A stretch of DNA of 44,639 nucleotides from Bacteroidales bacterium (GTDB lineage Bacteria; Bacteroidota; Bacteroidia; Bacteroidales; UBA932), in contig JAFZUX010000006.1 in assembly GCA_017618115.1 (NCBI GenBank), positions 1-44,639 on the forward strand. The letters run 5' to 3'. A model generated the notes under the pieces. The model had not been told where the DNA came from and made no database searches. It saw only the letters and a program-made list of their open reading frames with translations. A program made the translations under genes and the position numbers. Positions 2,682-20,170 of the stretch are shown here, in pieces. Within the stretch, counting starts at the first letter, position 1. Each line of letters begins with the position of its first letter.

Positions 2682-3923
2682 ATGGTTTTAGAGATTCGTT
2701 TAAGTAACTTTTTCTCCATTAACGAGGAGGTGGTTTTGGATATGCAAGCTGCAAACCTCCAAACCAAGCAATCTAAAGTGTTGGAGGGAAATACATTTGT
2801 CTGCAACGGCGAACGGTTATTGAAAACTGTTGCTATTTATGGAGCAAATGCATCTGGTAAAAGCAATATTATCAAGGCGATTAGAGCTTGTGTACAGATG
2901 ATATTTGAGTCATATAACTATAATGAAAATACACAGTTTGCTTTTATTCCGTTCAAGTTTGGTGGGGCCGATAAGCCTAGTAAGTTTTTTATCCGTTTTT
3001 TGATAGACGGAGTGGAGTATGAGTATAGTTTCTCTATGACTAATACTGAGATAATTACTGAGGTGTTGTATTATTATCCTAATGGTCGTAGAAAATTGGT
3101 GTTTGCCAGGGATGAAAGGAAGGGACCGGACAAGAAAGATATCTATGAGTTCAGGAATGCAATACGTCGTCCTATGGATGTGGCATCAAATACCTCGAAA
3201 AAGACTCTGTTTGTGTCTAGAGCCAGTTCAATGGACAGAGAGGTTGCTAAAGATGTTTTCCGCTATTTTAACGAGCATTTTATCTTAAACTATTTTGGGT
3301 ATAACAGCTTTTCTATAGAGTATCTTTTGAACTCGAATAAGGAATCTATTTTGAAGTTATTAGCTATAGCTGATAGTGACATTGTGGATTATCAAAGTCA
3401 AAGAGAACTCAAGACCCTGACAACTGCAGTATTTGATTCTCAGAGTAATAAAGTGATATCCAGCGACGATATTCAAAAGCCTCTTTTAAAGATTACAACA
3501 TTTCATAAGAATAATCCGAGTATACCTTTTGACTTCCACTCAGAAGAATCAGATGGAACTCAGGAGTTTTTCCACATGATGTTGACAATCATGAACATAA
3601 TAAGGGGTAATAAGGTTCTCCTGATAGATGAGATATCAACAGGACTTCACGTTAAGTTAGTTGAATACATTATCCAACTGTTTAATCAGAGTGAATCCGC
3701 TCAGTTGATTTTTACAACGCATAATACGAATCTTCTTGATATGAAGAAGATTAGGAAAGACCAGGTTTATTTTGTGAATAAAAGGAGTGATGGTTCTTCC
3801 GATCTTTATTCTTTGTTTGATTACAAAGATTTCCGGGAGAATATGGATGCAGAAAAAGCTTACTTGCAAGGACGTTTTGATGCGATTCCGTATATTGATG
3901 ACTCTTCAGACGAACTAGATTAA
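2682..3923 (+). CDS. AAA/ABC-type ATPase, RloA-like (AbiLi type)
   Basis: A 413-aa P-loop ATPase of the AAA_15/AAA_21 (SMC-like) class. The Walker A is GANASGKS at residues 54-61, the Walker B region VLLIDEIST is near 313-321 and a switch histidine is in TTHNTNLLD near 345. The amino end (LEIRLSNFFSINEEVVLDM) is typical of these overcoming-lysogenization-like ATPases. It is followed 10 bases later by a RloB gene. In Lactococcus the related AbiL pair aborts phage infection. Other such pairs occur in restriction loci. The role as a defence ATPase is inferred from this pairing; the ATPase assignment is direct. Confidence 0.9.
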   Translation: MVLEIRLSNFFSINEEVVLDMQAANLQTKQSKVLEGNTFVCNGERLLKTVAIYGANASGKSNIIKAIRACVQMIFESYNYNENTQFAFIPFKFGGADKPSKFFIRFLIDGVEYEYSFSMTNTEIITEVLYYYPNGRRKLVFARDERKGPDKKDIYEFRNAIRRPMDVASNTSKKTLFVSRASSMDREVAKDVFRYFNEHFILNYFGYNSFSIEYLLNSNKESILKLLAIADSDIVDYQSQRELKTLTTAVFDSQSNKVISSDDIQKPLLKITTFHKNNPSIPFDFHSEESDGTQEFFHMMLTIMNIIRGNKVLLIDEISTGLHVKLVEYIIQLFNQSESAQLIFTTHNTNLLDMKKIRKDQVYFVNKRSDGSSDLYSLFDYKDFRENMDAEKAYLQGRFDAIPYIDDSSDELD

Positions 3924-3933
3924 TTAGTATACT

Positions 3934-4479
3934 ATGGGCAGGAAGAACCGTGTGTCAAAAGGAAAACAAATGAAGCCAAATTTCTTTGTTTTCTGTGAAG
4001 GGGAGACAGAAATAACGTATGTTAAATTTCTGCGTTCTTTGTATCGTGTTCCTATTCAGGTTATTCCGAGGAAGGGGAAATCAAATATCACACAAAGCGA
4101 TATAGAGAATACAAAGAAAGATTATGTATTGACAAGTCAAGATAAAGTGTTTCTAATGTTTGATTTGGACGTAGAAGGTATGTTGGAGAATTTGAAGAAG
4201 ATACCAGATGCTGAGTTGCTGGTTTCTAACCCTTGTGTTGAGTTATGGTTTCTACTTCATTTTAGGGAACAAACAACATCAATTACATCTAAGCAAAGCA
4301 CTATGAAACTACAAGCATGTTCAAATGGTTACAAAAAGGGCTCATTGTCTGAAGAAGAGAAAATGGTTCTTTCATCTAATAAGGAACTTGCTATTCAAAG
4401 AGCAAAGAGCCTAACAGAGTACAATAATCCTTCAACTACTGTGTATAAGCTTTTAGAGATGTTGAAGGACAAAGTATAA
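3934..4479 (+). CDS. rloB: RloB-like protein (putative TOPRIM-like nuclease partner)
   Basis: 181 aa. The amino end shows the RloB signature FFVFCEGETEITYVKFL (residues about 17-33), followed by an acidic VFLMFDLDVEG strand-loop near 70-80 and the conserved NPCVELWFLLHF segment near 98-109. The acidic E and D-x-D positions are the ones thought to bind metal in this TOPRIM-related family. It is co-transcribed with the ATPase (10-base gap). The known family context is AbiLii in abortive infection and RloB in restriction islands. The target nucleic acid cannot be inferred. Confidence 0.85.
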   Translation: MGRKNRVSKGKQMKPNFFVFCEGETEITYVKFLRSLYRVPIQVIPRKGKSNITQSDIENTKKDYVLTSQDKVFLMFDLDVEGMLENLKKIPDAELLVSNPCVELWFLLHFREQTTSITSKQSTMKLQACSNGYKKGSLSEEEKMVLSSNKELAIQRAKSLTEYNNPSTTVYKLLEMLKDKV

Positions 4480-12513: not shown

Positions 12514-12861
12514 CTATTTTTCAGATTTATTAGAGATTTCAACCAAATAGTCATAGAAGGCATCAATGTCACTAACGTTGTATTCCTTTTTATCTATCCA
12601 ATATTTTGCCTCTCCTTTAGGTGCTTCTTCCATCCACCATTCTAGTTCATCATCGATTCCTAGTTCATTGAATTTTAGGTTGAACAAGAGGCAGAAAGCA
12701 TATCTTACTACTTTCCGCCAAGGGGATATATAGAACGGTGTGTGCTGCCCTTGTTCATCATCCCAGATGAGCTCAAAAGCATCATTGACTTTGTCTTCTT
12801 TTGCCTGAGCACTCTTTACGAATTCAATAAATTCTTTGAATTGTTCGCGGGTAGGTATCAT
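12514..12861 (-). CDS. Small acidic hypothetical protein, 115 aa, downstream of the RNA ligase
   Basis: ATG 12861 to TAA 12514. The protein is soluble, acidic and aromatic (ELEWWMEEAPKGEAKYWID), with no signal peptide. It begins 12 bases after the RNA ligase stop on the same strand, so it should be on the same operator-controlled transcript. Not recognised. Possible roles are a ligase partner or an immunity-type protein; neither is shown by sequence. Confidence 0.7.
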   Translation of the reverse strand: MIPTREQFKEFIEFVKSAQAKEDKVNDAFELIWDDEQGQHTPFYISPWRKVVRYAFCLLFNLKFNELGIDDELEWWMEEAPKGEAKYWIDKKEYNVSDIDAFYDYLVEISNKSEK

Positions 12862-13887: not shown

Positions 13888-13932
13888 ATAGATTTGTTTT
13901 GTGGCAAAGATATGAGCCCGTAGTGTTTTATT

Positions 13933-13961
13933 CAAATCATTGCAAACCTTGCAACGATTTT
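13933..13961. promoter_or_regulatory. Operator 1 (29-bp palindrome)
   Basis: CAAATCATTGCAA, then ACC, then TTGCAACGATTTT. Centre at 13947. It covers the -33 box of the ligase promoter. Confidence 0.85.
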
Positions 13962-14004
13962 GAAATGAGGAAGATATATGTATTAGAAAAAGATGGGAGA
14001 AATG

Positions 14005-14033
14005 CAAATTGTTGCAAATCTTGCAATGATTTG
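14005..14033. promoter_or_regulatory. Operator 2 (29-bp palindrome)
   Basis: CAAATTGTTGCAA, then ATC, then TTGCAATGATTTG. Centre at 14019, exactly 72 bp from operator 1. It covers the -33 box of the phosphoesterase promoter. Confidence 0.85.
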
Positions 14034-14081
14034 CAAGAGGTTTGAAGGGGCCATAACTTTGCAGCAAAAAGGAATAGTATT

Positions 14082-14849
14082 ATGAAGATTCAATATGCAT
14101 CGGATCTGCATTTGGAGTTTGAAGAGAATGTGAAATTCATTGATAGAGGGAAAATTACGCCTGTGGGGGATGTGCTGGTGCTTGCGGGAGATGTGTCATA
14201 TCTGGGGGATAGGAAGATGGTGAAGAGTCGTTTTTTTGACTGGTGCTCAGAGCATTTCAAGGAGACTTTGATTGTGCCGGGGAATCACGAGTTCTATGGT
14301 GGGTATGATATTGAAAAGACGATGGTGGGGTATGAGTTTAACTATCGGGAGAATGTGAGGTATTTGAATAATAAAAGTTTTGTGATTGGTGATACGGAGC
14401 TGTTTTTTACTACACTGTGGACTAAGATTAGCCCTCTTTATTTATTTGAGATTCAGCAGGGTATGAATGATTTTAGATATGGGCGTTTGAAAGGTGGGAA
14501 GTTCTTTGCAAACGATGTGGATGGGTTGCACAGGAGGTGTATGGAGTGGTTGGACACGGCTTTGAAGGTTTCTGTGGCGGAGCATAAGATTGTTGTTACG
14601 CACCATTGTCCGACTCTTCGTCCTGAGTTTGATGACCATTCCGGAGGGGTTTTGAATTCGGCGTTTCATGTTGACTTGGATTCTTTCATAGAACGCTGTA
14701 GTGCAGATTATTGGATCTATGGTCACACTCATTTTGCGGGTGGCTCCGGTAGCAAAATAGGGAAGACTACATTACTATGTAACCAAATGGGGTACGTGTT
14801 CTGCAATGAACATCAGGCTTTTAACGGAATGGCCTGTTTTGAGGTGTAA
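14082..14849 (+). CDS. Calcineurin-like metallophosphoesterase
   Basis: 255 aa. The two-metal active site is complete: D8-x-H10 (SDLHLEF), G-D37 (LAGDVS), G-N68-H69-E70, H174-H175 (VTHHCP) and G-H215-T-H217. No signal peptide, so it is cytoplasmic. It is divergent from the RNA ligase and shares its two-operator promoter. In that setting a role in trimming RNA ends (removing a terminal or cyclic phosphate before ligation) is reasonable but inferred; family members also act on DNA, nucleotides and proteins. Confidence 0.88.
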   Translation: MKIQYASDLHLEFEENVKFIDRGKITPVGDVLVLAGDVSYLGDRKMVKSRFFDWCSEHFKETLIVPGNHEFYGGYDIEKTMVGYEFNYRENVRYLNNKSFVIGDTELFFTTLWTKISPLYLFEIQQGMNDFRYGRLKGGKFFANDVDGLHRRCMEWLDTALKVSVAEHKIVVTHHCPTLRPEFDDHSGGVLNSAFHVDLDSFIERCSADYWIYGHTHFAGGSGSKIGKTTLLCNQMGYVFCNEHQAFNGMACFEV

Positions 14850-14851
14850 TC

Positions 14852-14950
14852 CTATAGTTCTTTTCTGGCAGCTTTTGCGGCGGCTATCTGTGCTTCAATT
14901 TTGTTTTTGACGTGAATTATCTTGAACGTGCTCTTGTAATAAACTCGTAT
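14852..14950 (-). pseudogene. Possible C-terminal gene remnant
   Basis: The reverse strand has an uninterrupted 32-codon frame between two stops, ending KIEAQIAAAKAARKEL and TAG (14852-14854). It reads like the helical C-terminus of a basic protein but lacks a start. It lies in a different frame from the gene at 14974. Could be chance. Confidence 0.25.
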
Positions 14951-14973
14951 CTACAGGAACTGAATGGGCTAAT

Positions 14974-15672
14974 TCACTTTACATTTCTGAAACTTGTTTT
15001 CTTGTCAAATCCAGCTGACTCCAGCTTCTGTACGTCTGTTCGGGTGTCAATGATGGGTTTATCTTTTAGGGATGATAGGTAATCATATAGAGCTTGCCAT
15101 ATTTCCTCGGGAGCAATAAATTTGGGAATAATGGTTCCAATTAGGATAGGATTTTTAATTCGTTGAATTAACTGGTTACTAGTTTCTTGCCATAATTCCT
15201 TATATTCATGAAGAAGAAAATAAGTGCGACAAGGGATGATGCATATTGGCGCATCCGAATATCGTTTCTTGATTTCTTTTATGGTGTCTAACAGTGTGTA
15301 TTCTACGTGGACACAATTTGCTTTTTTCTCATCAATCCATCTTTCCACTTCAAAGCGATAATGGGTGAAACCCACCTCCAAAATAAAGTGATAGATATCG
15401 CCTTCAGTCCAAACTTTAAACCCTGATTTTTTTTCGGGCTGGTACTGTCTTCGTTTGGCAATACTGTTACGGCTTCCTCTCCATCTTTTATTGATGATGC
15501 GTTTATCAAGAGGCAAGACTGTTTTACTGAAGTAGTAATCCATTCCCATCAGAAATGCTTTTTCCGAACTCAATATAACAGATTCTCTTCGGTCATAAAC
15601 AATTTGGTCATCAATTCCATAGATGCCGGATAGATAGTCATAATAGTCTTTCTTGTTGTCAATGATTTTCAT
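14974..15672 (-). CDS. Hypothetical protein of the operator-controlled locus, 232 aa
   Basis: The start at 15672 (MKIIDNKKDYYDYLSGIYG) is chosen because the operators lie just upstream and would be inside a longer frame. The protein is soluble and mixed charge, with a basic middle (RWRGSRNSIAKRRQYQ, residues about 64-79) that could bind nucleic acid, then an alpha/beta part with HFILEVGFTHYRFEVER and APICIIPCRTYF. No motif I can name. Its promoter has the same architecture as the RNA ligase promoter, so it is very probably part of the same response. It diverges from the 268-aa unknown gene. Confidence 0.8.
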   Translation of the reverse strand: MKIIDNKKDYYDYLSGIYGIDDQIVYDRRESVILSSEKAFLMGMDYYFSKTVLPLDKRIINKRWRGSRNSIAKRRQYQPEKKSGFKVWTEGDIYHFILEVGFTHYRFEVERWIDEKKANCVHVEYTLLDTIKEIKKRYSDAPICIIPCRTYFLLHEYKELWQETSNQLIQRIKNPILIGTIIPKFIAPEEIWQALYDYLSSLKDKPIIDTRTDVQKLESAGFDKKTSFRNVK

Positions 15673-15712
15673 TTTTTTTGTTTGCAAAAATGGTTGTAGA
15701 TAATTATGTCTG

Positions 15713-15741
15713 CAAATCATTGCAAACCTTGCAATGATTTG
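15713..15741. promoter_or_regulatory. Operator 3 (perfect 29-bp palindrome)
   Basis: CAAATCATTGCAA, then ACC, then TTGCAATGATTTG. The arms are perfectly complementary. Centre at 15727. Confidence 0.87.
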
Positions 15742-15784
15742 TTTCTTTGATAGATTTTTCCAATTGGCTTTTTCTTTTGATTTC

Positions 15785-15813
15785 CAAATTGTTGCAAACC
15801 TTGCAACGATTTG
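15785..15813. promoter_or_regulatory. Operator 4 (29-bp palindrome)
   Basis: CAAATTGTTGCAA, then ACC, then TTGCAACGATTTG. Centre at 15799, 72 bp from operator 3. Confidence 0.86.
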
Positions 15814-15874
15814 CATTGATGGTATAGTAGCCATAATTTTGTTTTCAGAAAAAACGAAACAAAACACAAATGAT

Positions 15875-16681
15875 ATGGCACAGGAAAAAATGAACGTAAC
15901 GCTGGCAAAAGCCGAGCACGAGAGAGCGATTTATATTGAATCGCTGAGAAAACAAGGAGAATTTTTTAAAAGAAATTCTGCTTCATTCAGAGGAGAGAAA
16001 AAGACCTTCCATGCTGCGGAAGGGCAACTTGAAGACCCCACAAAAGTAGGCCACACTGTGGTGGCTTGCACGGTATCGGAGGAGATTAATAGGCTGATGG
16101 AAAAAGCTTTATCTCCTTATTTGAAGGATCAGTTTTCTATTGAGGCAACAAATGCTGCAGGGGCGGCCAGAGTGCCGTTTGTTGTGGAGGGACTCAATTT
16201 GGGAAGTCTGTCTGCAACAGAATTATTACGTCTCAAAAACATTCTTACTGATGAAAATCTGAAGAATTTGGTTTCTAACATTCCTGTTAGGTCTGATTCG
16301 GAAATATGGAAAACCAGTGATAATGAGGACTATCAAGGTAGGCTAGATATTTTTGAGACTCCGCGTCTGGAAGGTGATAGTTTTACTACCATTACGGATA
16401 CAGAAATTCTATTGGACCCTAATATAGATAAGGAGCACCTCCCATCCAGCTATCGGCCTATCACGAAAGAAGTGAAAACAACAATAAAACGAGGATCATA
16501 TACATCCCAGAAGTTCTCGGGAGAGTGGACATTGAGGCAGAAACAACTGGTTCAGGAGCGAATAAGTAAATTGATAAATGCTGTCATTGAGGCAACAAAG
16601 ACCGTCAATGATACTCCGACTATGGAACCGAATCTTGCGGCGGATAAGCTTCTTGGGTATATCTTCTACGGGAACGAATGA
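15875..16681 (+). CDS. Hypothetical protein of the operator-controlled locus, 268 aa
   Basis: The start at 15875 (MAQEKMNVTLAKAEHERAIY) follows the promoter at 15834-15841; upstream codons in the same frame run through the operators and are not translated. The protein is soluble, with an N-terminal charged helix, a central Ala/Gly-rich part (ATNAAGAARVPF) and a C-terminal basic helix (RQKQLVQERISKLINAVIEATK). I do not recognise it. The stop at 16679-16681 lies only 9 bases before the first tRNA-like structure, so its transcript probably runs into that array. This makes it a candidate partner of those RNAs. Confidence 0.82.
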   Translation: MAQEKMNVTLAKAEHERAIYIESLRKQGEFFKRNSASFRGEKKTFHAAEGQLEDPTKVGHTVVACTVSEEINRLMEKALSPYLKDQFSIEATNAAGAARVPFVVEGLNLGSLSATELLRLKNILTDENLKNLVSNIPVRSDSEIWKTSDNEDYQGRLDIFETPRLEGDSFTTITDTEILLDPNIDKEHLPSSYRPITKEVKTTIKRGSYTSQKFSGEWTLRQKQLVQERISKLINAVIEATKTVNDTPTMEPNLAADKLLGYIFYGNE

Positions 16682-16690
16682 TTCCCGATT

Positions 16691-16778
16691 GGCAGATTAG
16701 CGTAAGCATTATGTGTCAGCTTTATTAGCGTCCCGGAGGGATGCACTTCAGCTTCAGCATCGTGCCAAAGCATCTGCT
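16691..16778 (+). ncRNA. tRNA-like structure 1 (degenerate or non-canonical)
   Basis: GGCAGAT (16691-16697) pairs with ATCTGCT (16772-16778), one G-U, as an acceptor stem. TA follows, as in tRNAs. A 7-bp hairpin GCGTCCC/GGGATGC (16728-16744) takes a variable-arm position. GCTT/AAGC (16751-16771, with an inner GCA/TGC) abuts the 3' acceptor strand as a T arm would, but lacks the TTCNA loop. The D stem is only GC/GC. It is a tRNA-shaped RNA or a decayed tRNA. Confidence 0.45.
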
Positions 16779-16838
16779 TTATGGTTCAAAGTATAGGCTC
16801 TTCGGAGGTTAAGTGTTTCGACAAGAGAGTCCAAGGTT

Positions 16839-16863
16839 GCGGGTTCAAGTCCCGCATCCGCCT
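16839..16863 (+). ncRNA. tRNA 3' half: T arm and acceptor strand
   Basis: GCGGG, TTCAAGT, CCCGC form a perfect T arm (16839-16855), followed by ATCCGCC (16856-16862) and T. I find no good 5' acceptor partner upstream within tRNA distance; TATAGGC at about 16793 pairs only with a shifted strand. The perfect partner GGCGGAT lies downstream at 16883-16889. Confidence 0.55.
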
Positions 16864-16882
16864 CTAAACCAAATTCATACAT

Positions 16883-16954
16883 GGCGGATTAGATCAAATG
16901 GTAGATCATGGGCTATAAAGCATCAGCTTGAAATACTCCGAATCCTATCGGCCA
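16883..16954 (+). ncRNA. tRNA-like structure 3: strong 5' half, weak 3' half
   Basis: GGCGGAT, TA and a perfect D arm (GATC, loop AAATGGTA with the GG pair, GATC) at 16883-16907 are textbook tRNA. The presumed anticodon arm pairs poorly. At tRNA distance ATCGGCC (16947-16953) matches the acceptor in 6 of 7 positions, and a TCCGAAT T-loop-like sequence precedes it without a stem. Downstream, 16949-16990 holds two competing GC-rich hairpins. Read as a degenerate tRNA or a tRNA mimic. Confidence 0.45.
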
Positions 16955-16992
16955 ATCTGGAGGCCGGGAAGAAGGATAAGAATTCCGGCCCA

Positions 16993-17064
16993 GGCCGCGT
17001 ACCTTAGTGGTAAAGGGCAACACTAATAATGTCGATATCGTGGGTTCGAATCCCACCGCGGCCA
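16993..17064 (+). tRNA. tRNA with canonical cloverleaf, apparent anticodon AAU (Ile)
   Basis: Acceptor GGCCGCG/CGCGGCC is perfect. The D arm is CCTT, loop AGTGGTA, AAGG. The T arm is GTGGG, TTCGAAT, CCCAC. The anticodon arm is CAACA, loop CTAATAA, TGTCG with one A-C mismatch and U33 in place, giving anticodon AAU. Bacteria rarely use A34 outside tRNA-Arg, so decoding is doubtful. CCA is not encoded. Length 72 including the discriminator A. Confidence 0.7.
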
Positions 17065-17078
17065 CAATTTATTGTGTT

Positions 17079-17300: not shown

Positions 17301-17313
17301 AAGTGGTTTGATT

Positions 17314-18468
17314 ATGGACGAGAACATGAAAAACAGAATAGTGCCAGCCACTGAGAGGGAACTGAACATCAATGGTGATTACTATCGGTGGATAACTGAT
17401 GTGAAGATGCGATATCGTCAAAGCCGGATAAAGGCTTCATTGTCTATGAACTGCTTTTTGATGGAGTTTTATTGGGGGCTTGGACACGATATCGTAGAGA
17501 TTAGGAAAGCTCATAAGTGGGGTAGTGGAATTATGGATCAGATTAGTTTGGACTTGAAGGCGGAGTTCCCCGGAGAGAAAGGGTTTTCGACACAGAATCT
17601 GTATCGTATGGCCAAATTCTATAGCTTCTATATGGGGGACGGCGTAATTTTCTCACAAGCTGTGAGAAAATTGCAATTGTCGGATAGTGAGGGAAATATG
17701 AATTTCGCACAAGTTGTGCGAAAAATGGAACCCTCGGGGTTTCCGACTATTTTGGGTATGATCCCGTGGGGGCATCACATAGCTATATTCCATAAAGTCG
17801 ACTCTTTAGAGGAGGCGGTTTTCTATATAGCAAAGACAATTCAAAATGGTTGGAGCCGAGATATGCTTGCACACTCTATTGAGGCAGGAACGTATAAAAT
17901 AGAGAGTAGTCCGTTGGATAATTTTGAACTTACTTTGCCAGAACCCCAGAGTGGGCTGGCGAAGGACTTGCACAAAAGTCCACTAAACTTTGGCTTTGTG
18001 TCATTGGAGGAGGGCTATTCTGAACACTCGCTTCGTAAGCAGTTGGTGGGAAACTTGAAACGGTTTTTGTTGGAAATGGGGCCTGATTTCTTTCTGAAGG
18101 GCGAAGAGGTGGAAGTGGTAGCCGGAGGTGAGAGCGGAAGTATTGATCTACTTCTGTATAATATGGCGCTGAAGTGCTACTTTGCAATTGAATTGAAGAC
18201 GGGCGCTTTCACTTCTCAGGATGTTGGTCAACTGAGCTTCTACGTGACGGCAGTAGACAAACTTATCAAGAAAAAGTATGACAACCCTACGGTGGGCATT
18301 ATTATCTGCAAGGAGATAAACAAGGTGAAGGCACAGTGGACATTAGAGGGAATAAGAAAGCCTATTGGTATCTCGACATATACTGACAACTTGATACGAC
18401 GGGTAGAAGAGCACTTAGATGCTTTGACGGAAGTGAAGAAAAAGAAATCGGATCTGGTTGATCCATGA
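17314..18468 (+). CDS. DUF1016/YhcG-family PD-(D/E)XK nuclease-like protein
   Basis: 384 aa from ATG 17314 (MDENMKNRIVPATERELN). The N-terminal DUF1016_N domain (about 20-190) contains SLSMNCFLMEFYWGLGHDIVE. The C-terminal nuclease domain (about 225-375) shows G-SIDLLLYN followed by CYFAIELKTG, i.e. the D...E-x-K catalytic set. The protein is common in Bacteroidetes islands, often near restriction genes; a role in DNA processing or defence is inferred. Between the domains an 18-residue unit is repeated (FSQAVRK, then FAQVVRK), each starting in a DNA palindrome. Confidence 0.88.
   Translation: MDENMKNRIVPATERELNINGDYYRWITDVKMRYRQSRIKASLSMNCFLMEFYWGLGHDIVEIRKAHKWGSGIMDQISLDLKAEFPGEKGFSTQNLYRMAKFYSFYMGDGVIFSQAVRKLQLSDSEGNMNFAQVVRKMEPSGFPTILGMIPWGHHIAIFHKVDSLEEAVFYIAKTIQNGWSRDMLAHSIEAGTYKIESSPLDNFELTLPEPQSGLAKDLHKSPLNFGFVSLEEGYSEHSLRKQLVGNLKRFLLEMGPDFFLKGEEVEVVAGGESGSIDLLLYNMALKCYFAIELKTGAFTSQDVGQLSFYVTAVDKLIKKKYDNPTVGIIICKEINKVKAQWTLEGIRKPIGISTYTDNLIRRVEEHLDALTEVKKKKSDLVDP
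17646..17723. repeat. Two palindromes inside the DUF1016 gene
   Basis: First: AATTTTCTCACA (17646-17657) with TGTGAGAAAATT (17661-17672), perfect 12-bp arms. Second: TTTCGCACAA (17703-17712) with TTGTGCGAAA (17714-17723), perfect 10-bp arms. Centres are 54 bp (18 codons) apart and both are translated in the same frame as F-x-Q-x-V-R-K. Confidence 0.85.
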
Positions 18469-19079: not shown

Positions 19080-19433
19080 TTATAGTACTGTTTTGGGGTA
19101 AAAAAGTCTGGCTTTGGGGATGTTGGAGATTTTGTAAAGGCCTGATTTCTGGTCTCTTCTGATGATTATACTCTTGGAGTTGCGGCTACCGAGTACTTTT
19201 ACAAACTTCTTTTTGATGCGGGAAACGTTGGTATAAAAGACGGTTTTGGACTCTGCGCAGAGGGATTCAATTTTTTCTTCTCTAAGATCTGGGTCATCAT
19301 AGTGGGATTCGTGTGAATAGGTGATACACAGTTCTTTCCAGTGAAGTACCAGATTATCTGAATGGATGCCTTCCGGGTGGGCAAGGAACAGGTTGTATAG
19401 TGTTCGCTCAATTGGGTTGAGGGAGATATTCAT
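19080..19433 (-). CDS. Winged-helix-like protein, paralogue of the divergent neighbour, 117 aa
   Basis: Start chosen at 19433 (MNISLNPIERTLYNLF) because a TAnnTTTG element (TAGTTTTG, reverse strand) lies at about 19454-19461, inside the longer 131-aa frame. The core LYNLFLAHPEGI matches LFILFLKHPEGI in the gene at 19577, and both continue with a helix around an acidic loop and end in a Y-x-I beta hairpin. This suggests a DNA-binding winged helix as in response-regulator effector domains. Basic C-terminal half. Target unknown; self-regulation through the intervening palindromes is plausible. Confidence 0.7.
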   Translation of the reverse strand: MNISLNPIERTLYNLFLAHPEGIHSDNLVLHWKELCITYSHESHYDDPDLREEKIESLCAESKTVFYTNVSRIKKKFVKVLGSRNSKSIIIRRDQKSGLYKISNIPKARLFYPKTVL

Positions 19434-19450
19434 TGCTGTGGCGTTTGATT

Positions 19451-19506
19451 GCAAAACTATGTTTTGCGGATACAAGAAAAAAGCAATTACAAGCTTGTAA
19501 TTGCTT
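19451..19506. promoter_or_regulatory. Two palindromes between the divergent winged-helix paralogues
   Basis: GCAAAAC, TAT, GTTTTGC (19451-19467) overlaps the reverse -7 element. A perfect 26-bp palindrome spans 19481-19506, with half site AAGCAATTACAAG. They may be operators; the second could also act as a bidirectional terminator because A and T runs flank it. Confidence 0.6.
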
Positions 19507-19576: not shown

Positions 19577-20170
19577 ATGGAAAATTATGCGGGCATACAG
19601 GCGCAAGTGGCTTGGTTACTGTTGTTTACGGGAACGGGAGAACTTCTGGAAGAGTCCGTTGAATCTGACTATTCAAGGATGTTGGAGGGGATGGAGGCGG
19701 CAGATTTGATTGCATTGATTGAGCTGGCGCAGAAGAGGCTGAATACTATCGCGATAGAGAATAGTCTGAACCTAACAAAACTCTTCATTGACAGAAATTA
19801 TGATGTGCATTTGCAAAATGCTGAGGGAAAGGTGATTCCATTCCGTCCTCTTGTTAAGGCTCTTTTTATTCTGTTCCTTAAGCATCCTGAGGGTATTCTA
19901 CTGAAACAGAGGGACTTGTTCACTGATGAGCTGGAGGGGATTTATGCGGTTATTTCTCCCAACGTTGCGGCTGAAGATAGGCGCAGGCGGGTGCAGAGGG
20001 TGATGAGTTTGGAGAGCAATTCGTATAGCGAGAATGCCTCCACTCTGAATGCCACTTTGGACCGGATTATGCCGCCAGGAACTGCGGAAGAGTATAAAAT
20101 TCAGGGGAATAACGGTTATCCAAGAAAGATTCATCTGAGTCCTTTGTTGGTACAGTGGGAATCACGGTAA
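19577..20170 (+). CDS. Putative winged-helix regulator, 197 aa
   Basis: The N-terminal part (1-85) is a helical, acidic domain of unknown role. From about residue 90 it resembles its divergent neighbour: FRPLVKALFILFLKHPEGI, an acidic EDRRRRVQRVMSLES helix, and a C-terminal YKIQGNNGYPRKIHL hairpin. It is likely a DNA-binding protein of the same family with an added sensor-like domain. The next gene, a secreted peptidase, begins 30 bases after its stop, so it may be in the same transcript. No exact family recognised. Confidence 0.72.
   Translation: MENYAGIQAQVAWLLLFTGTGELLEESVESDYSRMLEGMEAADLIALIELAQKRLNTIAIENSLNLTKLFIDRNYDVHLQNAEGKVIPFRPLVKALFILFLKHPEGILLKQRDLFTDELEGIYAVISPNVAAEDRRRRVQRVMSLESNSYSENASTLNATLDRIMPPGTAEEYKIQGNNGYPRKIHLSPLLVQWESR

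Follow-up and report, generated by a model that had tools for sequence, protein, structure and literature searches.

What is the role of four copies of one long palindrome, each lying over a promoter, among the genes for an RNA ligase, a phosphoesterase and two further proteins? The question is raised by a 44,639-nucleotide stretch of a Bacteroidales genome (contig JAFZUX010000006.1 of assembly GCA_017618115.1), hereafter the window; the genome that carries it is labeled G000. A preliminary description of this DNA had placed four 29-bp palindromes in two divergent promoter regions and had read the outer GATTTG of each as the -33 box of a promoter whose -7 element lies 20 bp further on. The positions of all four palindromes proved correct (Table 1), and so did the promoter geometry. 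The Bacteroides promoter consensus, as given in excerpts of PMC7366714, combines a -7 box, TAnnTTTG, with a -33 box, TTTG. In all four cases the outer GATTTG supplies the TTTG and a -7 box follows after 20 bp, with 6/6 consensus letters for the genes of the ligase, the phosphoesterase (PE1) and a DUF7873 protein and 5/6 for the gene of a 232-aa protein. Shuffled flanks scored 5/6 at this spacing in 24 of 4000 trials. The pattern TTGCAANNNTTGCAA has exactly four perfect matches in the window, all of them at these sites, and at up to two mismatches there are 9 matches compared with 4.16 expected, a count reached in 1 of 100 shuffles. Judged by its sequence and placement, the palindrome is a true, promoter-embedded putative operator with a recurrent RNA-repair theme.

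The same arrangement is found outside the window. We tabulated 20 promoters carrying the operator in eight genomes, 5 in G000 and 15 in seven others. These have the features of promoters of the Bacteroidales primary sigma factor: all 20 have an intact -33 TTTG, 15/20 have a complete -7 box, and the other five agree with it in 5/6 letters. The spacer between the two boxes is 20 bp in 19 of the 20 and 21 bp in one, from genome G704. Positions 2-5, 9-13, 17-21 and 25-29 of the operator are invariant in every case. The 20 promoters correspond to 18 distinct palindromes, because in genomes G705 and G222 two divergent promoters share a single palindrome.

A genome-wide scan for the motif had been suggested at the outset, and it showed the sites to be rare and promoter-associated. 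The full pattern CAAATNNTTGCAANNNTTGCAANNATTTG was scanned over 61 relatives with up to three mismatches allowed, together with a reversed control pattern, and gave matches in nine. Sites with no or one mismatch occur in G000 (5), G030 (5) and G011 (3) and in none of the other 58 genomes; the remaining six matched genomes hold 3-mismatch sites alone, seven in total, versus three for the reversed control in the same set. The reversed pattern has no site in the G000 genome, where the fifth operator (G000:C18:4116) precedes a KilA-N gene on another contig. A family sample of 246 genomes, overlapping the set of 61 and without G011 and G781 among its listed members, was searched at up to two mismatches. 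Six genomes matched (five sites each in G000 and G030, one each in G704, G705, G222 and G209), and the reversed control matched none of the 246. The G209 site falls within a frame of 529 codons, has no -7 box at 19-21 bp and was treated as chance. A shorter half-motif, at up to one mismatch, matched 4 of 100 relatives (G000, G011, G030 and G042); the G042 site, which has five mismatches to the full motif, is in an open frame and has no -7 box, was likewise attributed to chance. The bare core occurs without mismatch 10 times in the G000 genome. Five of these occurrences are the operators, and the other five differ from the full motif at 4 to 7 positions, are situated in open frames of 208-762 codons and agree with a -7 box, at 19-21 bp, in no more than 4/6 letters. 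The genome-wide counts and the reversed-pattern controls exclude a chance origin of the operators. A phage origin gained no support: exact matching did not find the operator in viral contigs.

Examination of the genes downstream revealed that the operator recurs on both homologous and non-homologous genes. In G000 its targets are the ligase gene with a 115-aa gene behind it, PE1, the 232-aa gene, the DUF7873 gene and, on the other contig, KilA-N. The targets in G030 are the ligase, PE1, a second phosphoesterase (PE2), a 287-aa protein and KilA-N, and those in G011 are PE2, the 287-aa protein and a small gene without assigned function. In G640, the genome of the metagenome-assembled genome (MAG) RGIG3425 from goat reticulum, the target is a ligase 80% identical to that of the window; in G781 and G704, which belong to other genera, it is DUF7873. 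G705 carries a variant palindrome, CAAATCTCTGCAAGCCTTGCAGGGATTTG, between two promoters, with RlaP (7.5e-71) and RtcB (4.3e-29, a partial protein) leftward and an 84-aa open reading frame (ORF) rightward. A similar variant in G222 has a 316-aa ORF leftward and possibly an RNA rightward; both variants contain CTGCAA...TTGCAG. For a common RNA to the right of the G705 and G222 sites we obtained a weak alignment, z-scores of +0.30 and -3.45, respectively, and no Rfam match.

The regulon first proposed, made up of the RNA ligase with its 115-aa partner, a phosphoesterase and two other genes, thus holds around the ligase and the phosphoesterase but is wider than listed: it also takes in KilA-N, the second phosphoesterase, the 287-aa protein, RlaP-RtcB and a structured RNA described below. 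The motif lies upstream of homologues in relatives, namely the closest ligases (G030, G640), PE1 (G030) and DUF7873 (G781, G704). The ligase itself is of the Rnl2 type. Its ligase domain and its Rnl2 C-terminal domain both score above cut-off (PF09414, PF18043) and it aligns with the T4 RNA ligase 2 chain (5.4e-31); its score to the NCBIfam equivalog TIGR02307 is 174.6 bits, under the cut-off of 197.15. The ligase is not a constant partner of the operator. Of 148 genomes searched, 7 contain a homologue: G000, G030 and five at 48-54% identity, and those five are without the operator. Two ligase loci at a still greater distance (L049, L050) contain no perfect copy of the core. As 5/5 distant ligase genomes do not carry the operator in the stretches examined, we rejected the idea that it is an ancient property of the ligase. 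SatD/DUF3307 genes adjoin the ligase in G640 and occur close to the locus in G030 and G781 as well, with nothing found that ties them to the operator. No copy of the 115-aa protein was found in the examined loci of other genomes.

The best explanation of these observations is probably that a single dedicated transcription factor uses the palindrome as its operator and, most likely as a repressor, controls an RNA-repair and defense regulon. A palindrome lying over its own -33 box is the usual layout of a repressor site, and class II activators also show a fixed distance to the -7 box. We favor a repressor because the palindrome covers the -33 box while the promoter is otherwise intact. The near-constant distance to the -7 box, 20 bp in 19/20, would also suit an activator that, bound over the -33 box, helps RNA polymerase and switches the genes on. 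However, with the -33 box intact throughout and the -7 box mostly full, these promoters seem not to need an activator, and the position of the palindrome fits the repressor layout; we regard the activator as an unlikely alternative. Under repression, we infer, accessory RNA-repair and defense genes would be kept quiet until release, the releasing signal probably being RNA or tRNA damage during phage attack. Release would supply end-joining activity, from the Rnl2-type ligase or, in G705, from RtcB with the RlaP nucleotidyltransferase. The phosphoesterases may clean RNA ends, and DUF7873 with a tRNA-mimicking RNA, and KilA-N, would be released as further targets.

The two operator pairs of the window, pair A (ligase and PE1) and pair B (232-aa gene and DUF7873 in G000), are each 72 bp apart from center to center, as had been noted before. 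The spacers show that these two distances do not count as independent observations. That of pair A, 43 bp long, agrees with the reverse complement of the G030 pair B spacer at 26/43 positions (reached in 2 of 20,000 shuffles), and the G030 copy of spacer A agrees with the reversed G030 spacer B at 26/43 as well (reached in 0 of 20,000). Within G000, spacer A matches the reversed spacer B at 22/43, compared to 14/43 in direct orientation. Pairs A and B therefore look like one inverted duplication, and their equal spacing is best read as inherited through it. Between G000 and G030 the spacers are 40/43 and 38/43 identical with no change in length, which is compatible with constraint and also with recent divergence. 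A blastn search of phages with the 42-bp spacer of pair B gave short matches in 11 records, judged to be chance.

The preliminary description had also suggested that a protein may bridge the 72-bp pair. A search for a second site at 10 loci, with the G030 and G011 pairs left out, found none under nine mismatches at eight of them, the chance range for the best second site being 7 to 13 mismatches. The eight single-operator loci are KilA-N in two genomes, G011 C25, G640, G781, G704, G705 and G222. Most examined loci thus have a single operator and the two pairs share ancestry, so bridging as first suggested is not supported: it is possible for the pairs and, because single operators are common, not required for the motif.

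The inverted likeness of pairs A and B invites a different view, in which mobile bidirectional promoter cassettes moved together with genes and the palindrome serves recombination rather than regulation. Pair B is kept while both flanking genes differ between G000 and G030/G011. Cassette B is identical at 96/101 bp in G000 and G030 despite different neighbors, the 232-aa gene and DUF7873 in the former and PE2 and the 287-aa gene in the latter. The chromosome flanks of the cassette are shared: genes for DASS and MFS transporters border it on one side together with a Fic-like gene, and a cysteine-peptidase-like gene lies on the opposite side (as named by inspection of the translations). The operator region is a variable island with defense candidates, and the operator loci sit in variable, defense-rich regions. 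Against such cassettes, single operators with the same -33/-7 geometry occur on unrelated promoters elsewhere (KilA-N; DUF7873 in G781 and G704). In G640, moreover, the half of the pair that faces away from the ligase has decayed, with 10 mismatches at -72 and a remnant that aligns with the cassette, and no PE1 is present in the 13 kb examined, yet the ligase-side operator is intact. We consider a recombination role very unlikely.

Which protein might bind the operator? The earlier statement that the locus contains no regulator stands by a search of the target products against Pfam, in which the only recognized DNA-binding domain was that of KilA-N, encoded elsewhere in the genome. The KilA-N protein (G000:C18, 273 aa) could in principle repress both itself and the island: it has the DNA-binding domain PF04383 (1.7e-16), its PHROG match (6.3e-54) is a transcriptional regulator, and in G000 and G030 its own promoter carries the operator. 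However, it has no match at E 0.001 in G011 (88% complete) despite the three operators there, an 80% identical relative in G127 and 27 other checked relatives are without the operator, and PADLOC classes it as the defense candidate PDC-S22. KilA-N relatives occur in 67 of 247 genomes, G640 having one at 50% identity; among the 30 loci checked upstream, the operator is present in G000 and G030 only. The missing operator at 28 relatives and the failure to find KilA-N in G011 weaken the case for a conserved regulator, and we think it quite unlikely that KilA-N is the one.

Two related small proteins of no known family at the edge of the island are improbable to the same degree. They adjoin the island in G000, G030, G011, G654 and G704, with a distant one in G705, and their profiles match each other (E 2.3e-12). 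On the other hand, they have no Pfam, NCBIfam or solved-structure match indicating DNA binding, no operator was found at their genes, and a search at E 1e-4 did not find them in the stretches examined from G640, G781 and G222. A winged-helix-like appearance of these proteins was discarded, as no tool supported it. The WYL protein of the G705 island has no copy in the other examined loci at E 1e-4 and is a lead only; WYL and CARF proteins have been proposed as regulators of defense systems (PMC4012209, in excerpt).

The DUF7873 branch of the putative regulon revealed a structured RNA. DUF7873 is rare: it was found in 1/198 and 1/395 genomes, G000 both times, with the control genome Deinobacterium chartae positive. 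The further bacterial copies are those of G781 and G704 only, 92% identical and found through a search with the RNA that lies 3' of the gene. The fold of 16680-16992 has a z-score of -4.02, with 0/100 shuffles as good. Within it, an 81-nt domain resembling a circularly permuted tRNA matches the Rfam YrlA model (RF02553) with 32.6 bits and an E-value of 2.4e-5 over model positions 23-85 (cmscan), short of the gathering score of 69. ARAGORN called no tRNA in this domain and only a separate tRNA downstream of it. The YrlA model matched 80/297 relatives and 8/14 control genomes, none over the cut-off; that scan of the relatives used stricter filters and did not report the window's own RNA. Of 30 matching loci that were examined, 29 held tRNA genes at the match and one, in G654, held a real relative of the window RNA, so the YrlA score alone was not used as proof.

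Conservation provides a second line of evidence. With blastn, 30 of 299 family genomes matched the RNA, four of them nearly full-length: G000, the source of the query, and G781, G704 and G654 with 92-93% identity. In the remaining 26 the match covers 48 to 70 nt of the tRNA part only, and the six of these that were checked all fall on tRNA-Lys genes. In G781 and G704 DUF7873 lies just 5' of the RNA with the operator in front, and the G654 contig starts inside the RNA. Operator, DUF7873 and an RNA of ~280 nt thus form a unit in three genera (G000, G781, G704), an adjacency which suggests that DUF7873 may be the protein partner of the RNA. On the 3' side of the RNA, G704 has two phosphoesterases, one a PE1 homologue (71% identity), G654 has one, and G781 has a decayed phosphoesterase-like sequence (by inspection). 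An alignment of the four sequences supports 90 pairs, with 98.6% of cells paired. Five pairs changed on both sides, compared with a mean of 2.3 in shuffles (reached in 5/500) and 0 or 1 with slid partners: one each in the T arm, the closed acceptor stem and the long basal stem, plus two in the hairpin that follows the domain, where three other cells break a pair. One sequence accounts for two broken pairs of this hairpin. The double-changed pair of the predicted basal stem (alignment columns 99-135 with 246-273) is changed in two sequences. Further pair types number 12, no higher than in shuffles (370/500 reach it). Since four closely related sequences are few, we take the covariation as support and not as proof.

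Searches outside bacteria gave a different picture for the protein and the RNA. An unannotated DUF7873 homologue, 45.6-47.1% identical, is present in 15 Lak megaphage records (MK250015-MK250029), and homologues at 44-47% occur in 4 viral contigs; plasmids gave no match. ARAGORN called no tRNA beside DUF7873 in three Lak stretches. The window RNA had no blastn match in phages or plasmids, and a 28-base piece of it had no exact match in viral contigs. TROVE (Ro60/Rsr) was not found at E 0.1 in G000, G011, G030 and G640, with Deinobacterium chartae as positive control and G781, G704 and G654 outside the search; its absence is likely but not certain, as the four genomes are 88-89% complete or of unstated completeness. 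A strongly folding RNA (z -5.6) lies 3' of the 287-aa gene in G011 (L053 9250-9569, minus strand), at a position that corresponds to that of the YrlA-like RNA of the window, with no Rfam match better than E 2.3. Comparison of DUF7873 with the 287-aa protein for homology gave just a 9-residue BLASTP match (E 6.2).

The tRNA that follows the RNA is unusual in its variation. ARAGORN reads its anticodon as AAT in G000, and the tRNA at the same place has AGT in G781, GCA in G704 and an 8-nt loop, TGCA, in G654. Over the four genomes 9/73 columns vary, and five of these are the anticodon triplet and the adjoining columns 346-347. By sequence, a nearly constant body with a changing anticodon is unlike a normal decoding tRNA. 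Phage tRNAs with an altered anticodon stem loop evade an anticodon nuclease, and AriB of PARIS cuts tRNA-Lys (excerpts of PMC11455837). By analogy with these phage tRNAs, the anticodon variation suggests that the tRNA possibly acts as an anticodon decoy in an inducible tRNA-damage response. A bolder version, which we put forward tentatively and hold to be unlikely, is that the regulon controls a ribonucleoprotein of DUF7873 and the permuted tRNA mimic, to which the tRNA with its exchangeable anticodon is joined. The tRNA would serve as bait or substitute for anticodon nucleases triggered by phage infection, and its anticodon would change between strains to suit whichever nuclease is encountered. 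The ligase and phosphoesterases would mend cut tRNAs, and one repressor that senses tRNA damage would release the whole set at once.

Several points weigh against a single dedicated repressor of RNA repair. Sequence searches did not identify the regulator, and the direction of control leaves the activator as a competitor, if an unlikely one. None of the 28 KilA-N relatives outside G000 and G030 comes below 2 mismatches of 12 in the core, and the five genomes with distant ligases have no core palindrome at up to one mismatch in the stretches examined. The variant palindrome of G705 and G222 could belong to a related but different regulator. KilA-N, the 232-aa and 287-aa proteins, the small gene of G011 and the G222 ORF show no link to RNA by sequence. 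As to the YrlA-like domain, neighboring tRNA genes alone give 30.6 to 41.8 bits to the YrlA model. The carrier genomes are mostly incomplete MAGs (83-97% complete where stated), and they are not fully independent, since RNA copies that are 92-93% identical between genera point to a recent transfer.

Table 1. Operators, promoter boxes, genes and RNAs of the locus, in window coordinates.
Feature	Position	Strand	Details
Operator 1	13933..13961	-	AAAATCGTTGCAAGGTTTGCAATGATTTG on minus strand; center 13947; outer TTTG 13933-13936 is -33 box of RNA ligase gene; -7 box TATCTTTG 13905-13912
Operator 2	14005..14033	+	center 14019; TTTG 14030-14033 is -33 box of PE1; -7 box TAACTTTG 14054-14061
Operator 3	15713..15741	-	center 15727; TTTG 15713-15716 is -33 box of 232-aa gene; -7 box CATTTTTG (5/6) 15685-15692
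Operator 4	15785..15813	+	center 15799; TTTG 15810-15813 is -33 box of DUF7873 gene; -7 box TAATTTTG 15834-15841
115-aa protein	12514..12861	-	3' of ligase; no family
Rnl2-type RNA ligase, 337 aa	12874..13887	-	PF09414 1.2e-24; PF18043 3.9e-18
PE1, calcineurin-like metallophosphoesterase, 255 aa	14082..14849	+	PF00149 1.5e-14; PHROG 1649 7.8e-43
232-aa protein	14974..15672	-	no assigned function; PHROG 4243 6.2e-11, best stretch residues 1-34
DUF7873 protein, 268 aa	15875..16681	+	PF25283 1.8e-25
Structured RNA 3' of DUF7873	16783..16957	+	long irregular basal stem closing YrlA-like domain
YrlA-like (circularly permuted tRNA) domain	16831-16911	+	T arm, closed acceptor-like arm, D arm
Hairpin between YrlA-like domain and tRNA	16960..16991	+	
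tRNA	16993..17065	+	anticodon AAT in G000 (ARAGORN)
DUF1016/PDC-S02 protein	17308-18465		defense candidate
Small island-edge protein	19083-19475	-	no known family
Small island-edge protein	19577-20167	+	no known family

Other defense-related genes were seen near operator loci. An AbiLi/AbiLii-like pair (window 2682-4479) lies ~8 kb from the ligase, with PADLOC matches of 7e-82 and 1.5e-24; AbiLi also matches AriA of PARIS (1e-36). IetA-like AAA proteins are encoded in the G704 and G705 islands. The G705 island (L189 1848-7498) is an RNA-repair island with a WYL protein, a HIRAN protein, an ADP-ribosylglycohydrolase, RtcB and RlaP, and its variant operator lies between RlaP and the rightward promoter.

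If the proposed repressor is real, Bacteroidales RNA repair would have a common switch acting on genes for Rnl2-type ligase, RtcB-RlaP, phosphoesterases and a tRNA mimic. The 29-bp operator would be a direct handle on its regulator, a search with the motif could reveal further members, and the nearly invariant tRNA body with its changing anticodon makes the decoy idea directly testable. We found no paper on DUF7873 in the literature searched; among the matches listed for Bacteroidales RNA repair, RlaP/RtcB/WYL and Bacteroidetes Y RNA, no title or opening of an abstract mentions the operator or the RNA.

The closest known parallel is the RNA repair operon rtcBA / rsr-yrlBA-rtcBA of Salmonella, which according to the accessible part of PMC7790460 is controlled by RtcR, a sigma-54 activator with a CARF sensor. 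Both would be inducible sets that tie an RNA ligase to a YrlA-type, tRNA-mimicking RNA, and RtcB itself lies 3' of the variant operator in G705. Unlike in the RtcR system, the promoters here are of the ordinary Bacteroidales -33/-7 type (20/20) with the palindrome over the -33 box, no Ro60/TROVE gene was found in the four carrier genomes searched, and the ligase of the window is of the Rnl2 type. Compared with the YrlA Y RNA (RF02553; PMC8394870, in excerpt), the window RNA has the same predicted order of basal stem, T arm, closed acceptor-like arm and D arm. It is longer and contains an inserted irregular stem, a hairpin and a tRNA come after it, and its neighbor is DUF7873 rather than Rsr. 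Phage and jumbo-phage RNA repair sets, which also include phosphoesterases, share with the present genes an Rnl2-type ligase, RlaP and RtcB, as far as the consulted part of PMC7824862 goes; the ligase and phosphoesterases of the window also match PHROG families, and DUF7873 occurs in Lak megaphages. In contrast to the phage sets, the genes described here are in bacterial genomes under a common operator. The tRNA resembles the phage tRNAs that resist anticodon nucleases (PARIS/T5; PMC11455837, in excerpt) in that a tRNA varied in its anticodon loop is found near defense genes. Unlike those phage tRNAs, it is encoded by the bacterium, lies beside a YrlA-like RNA, and varies by genome in the anticodon itself.

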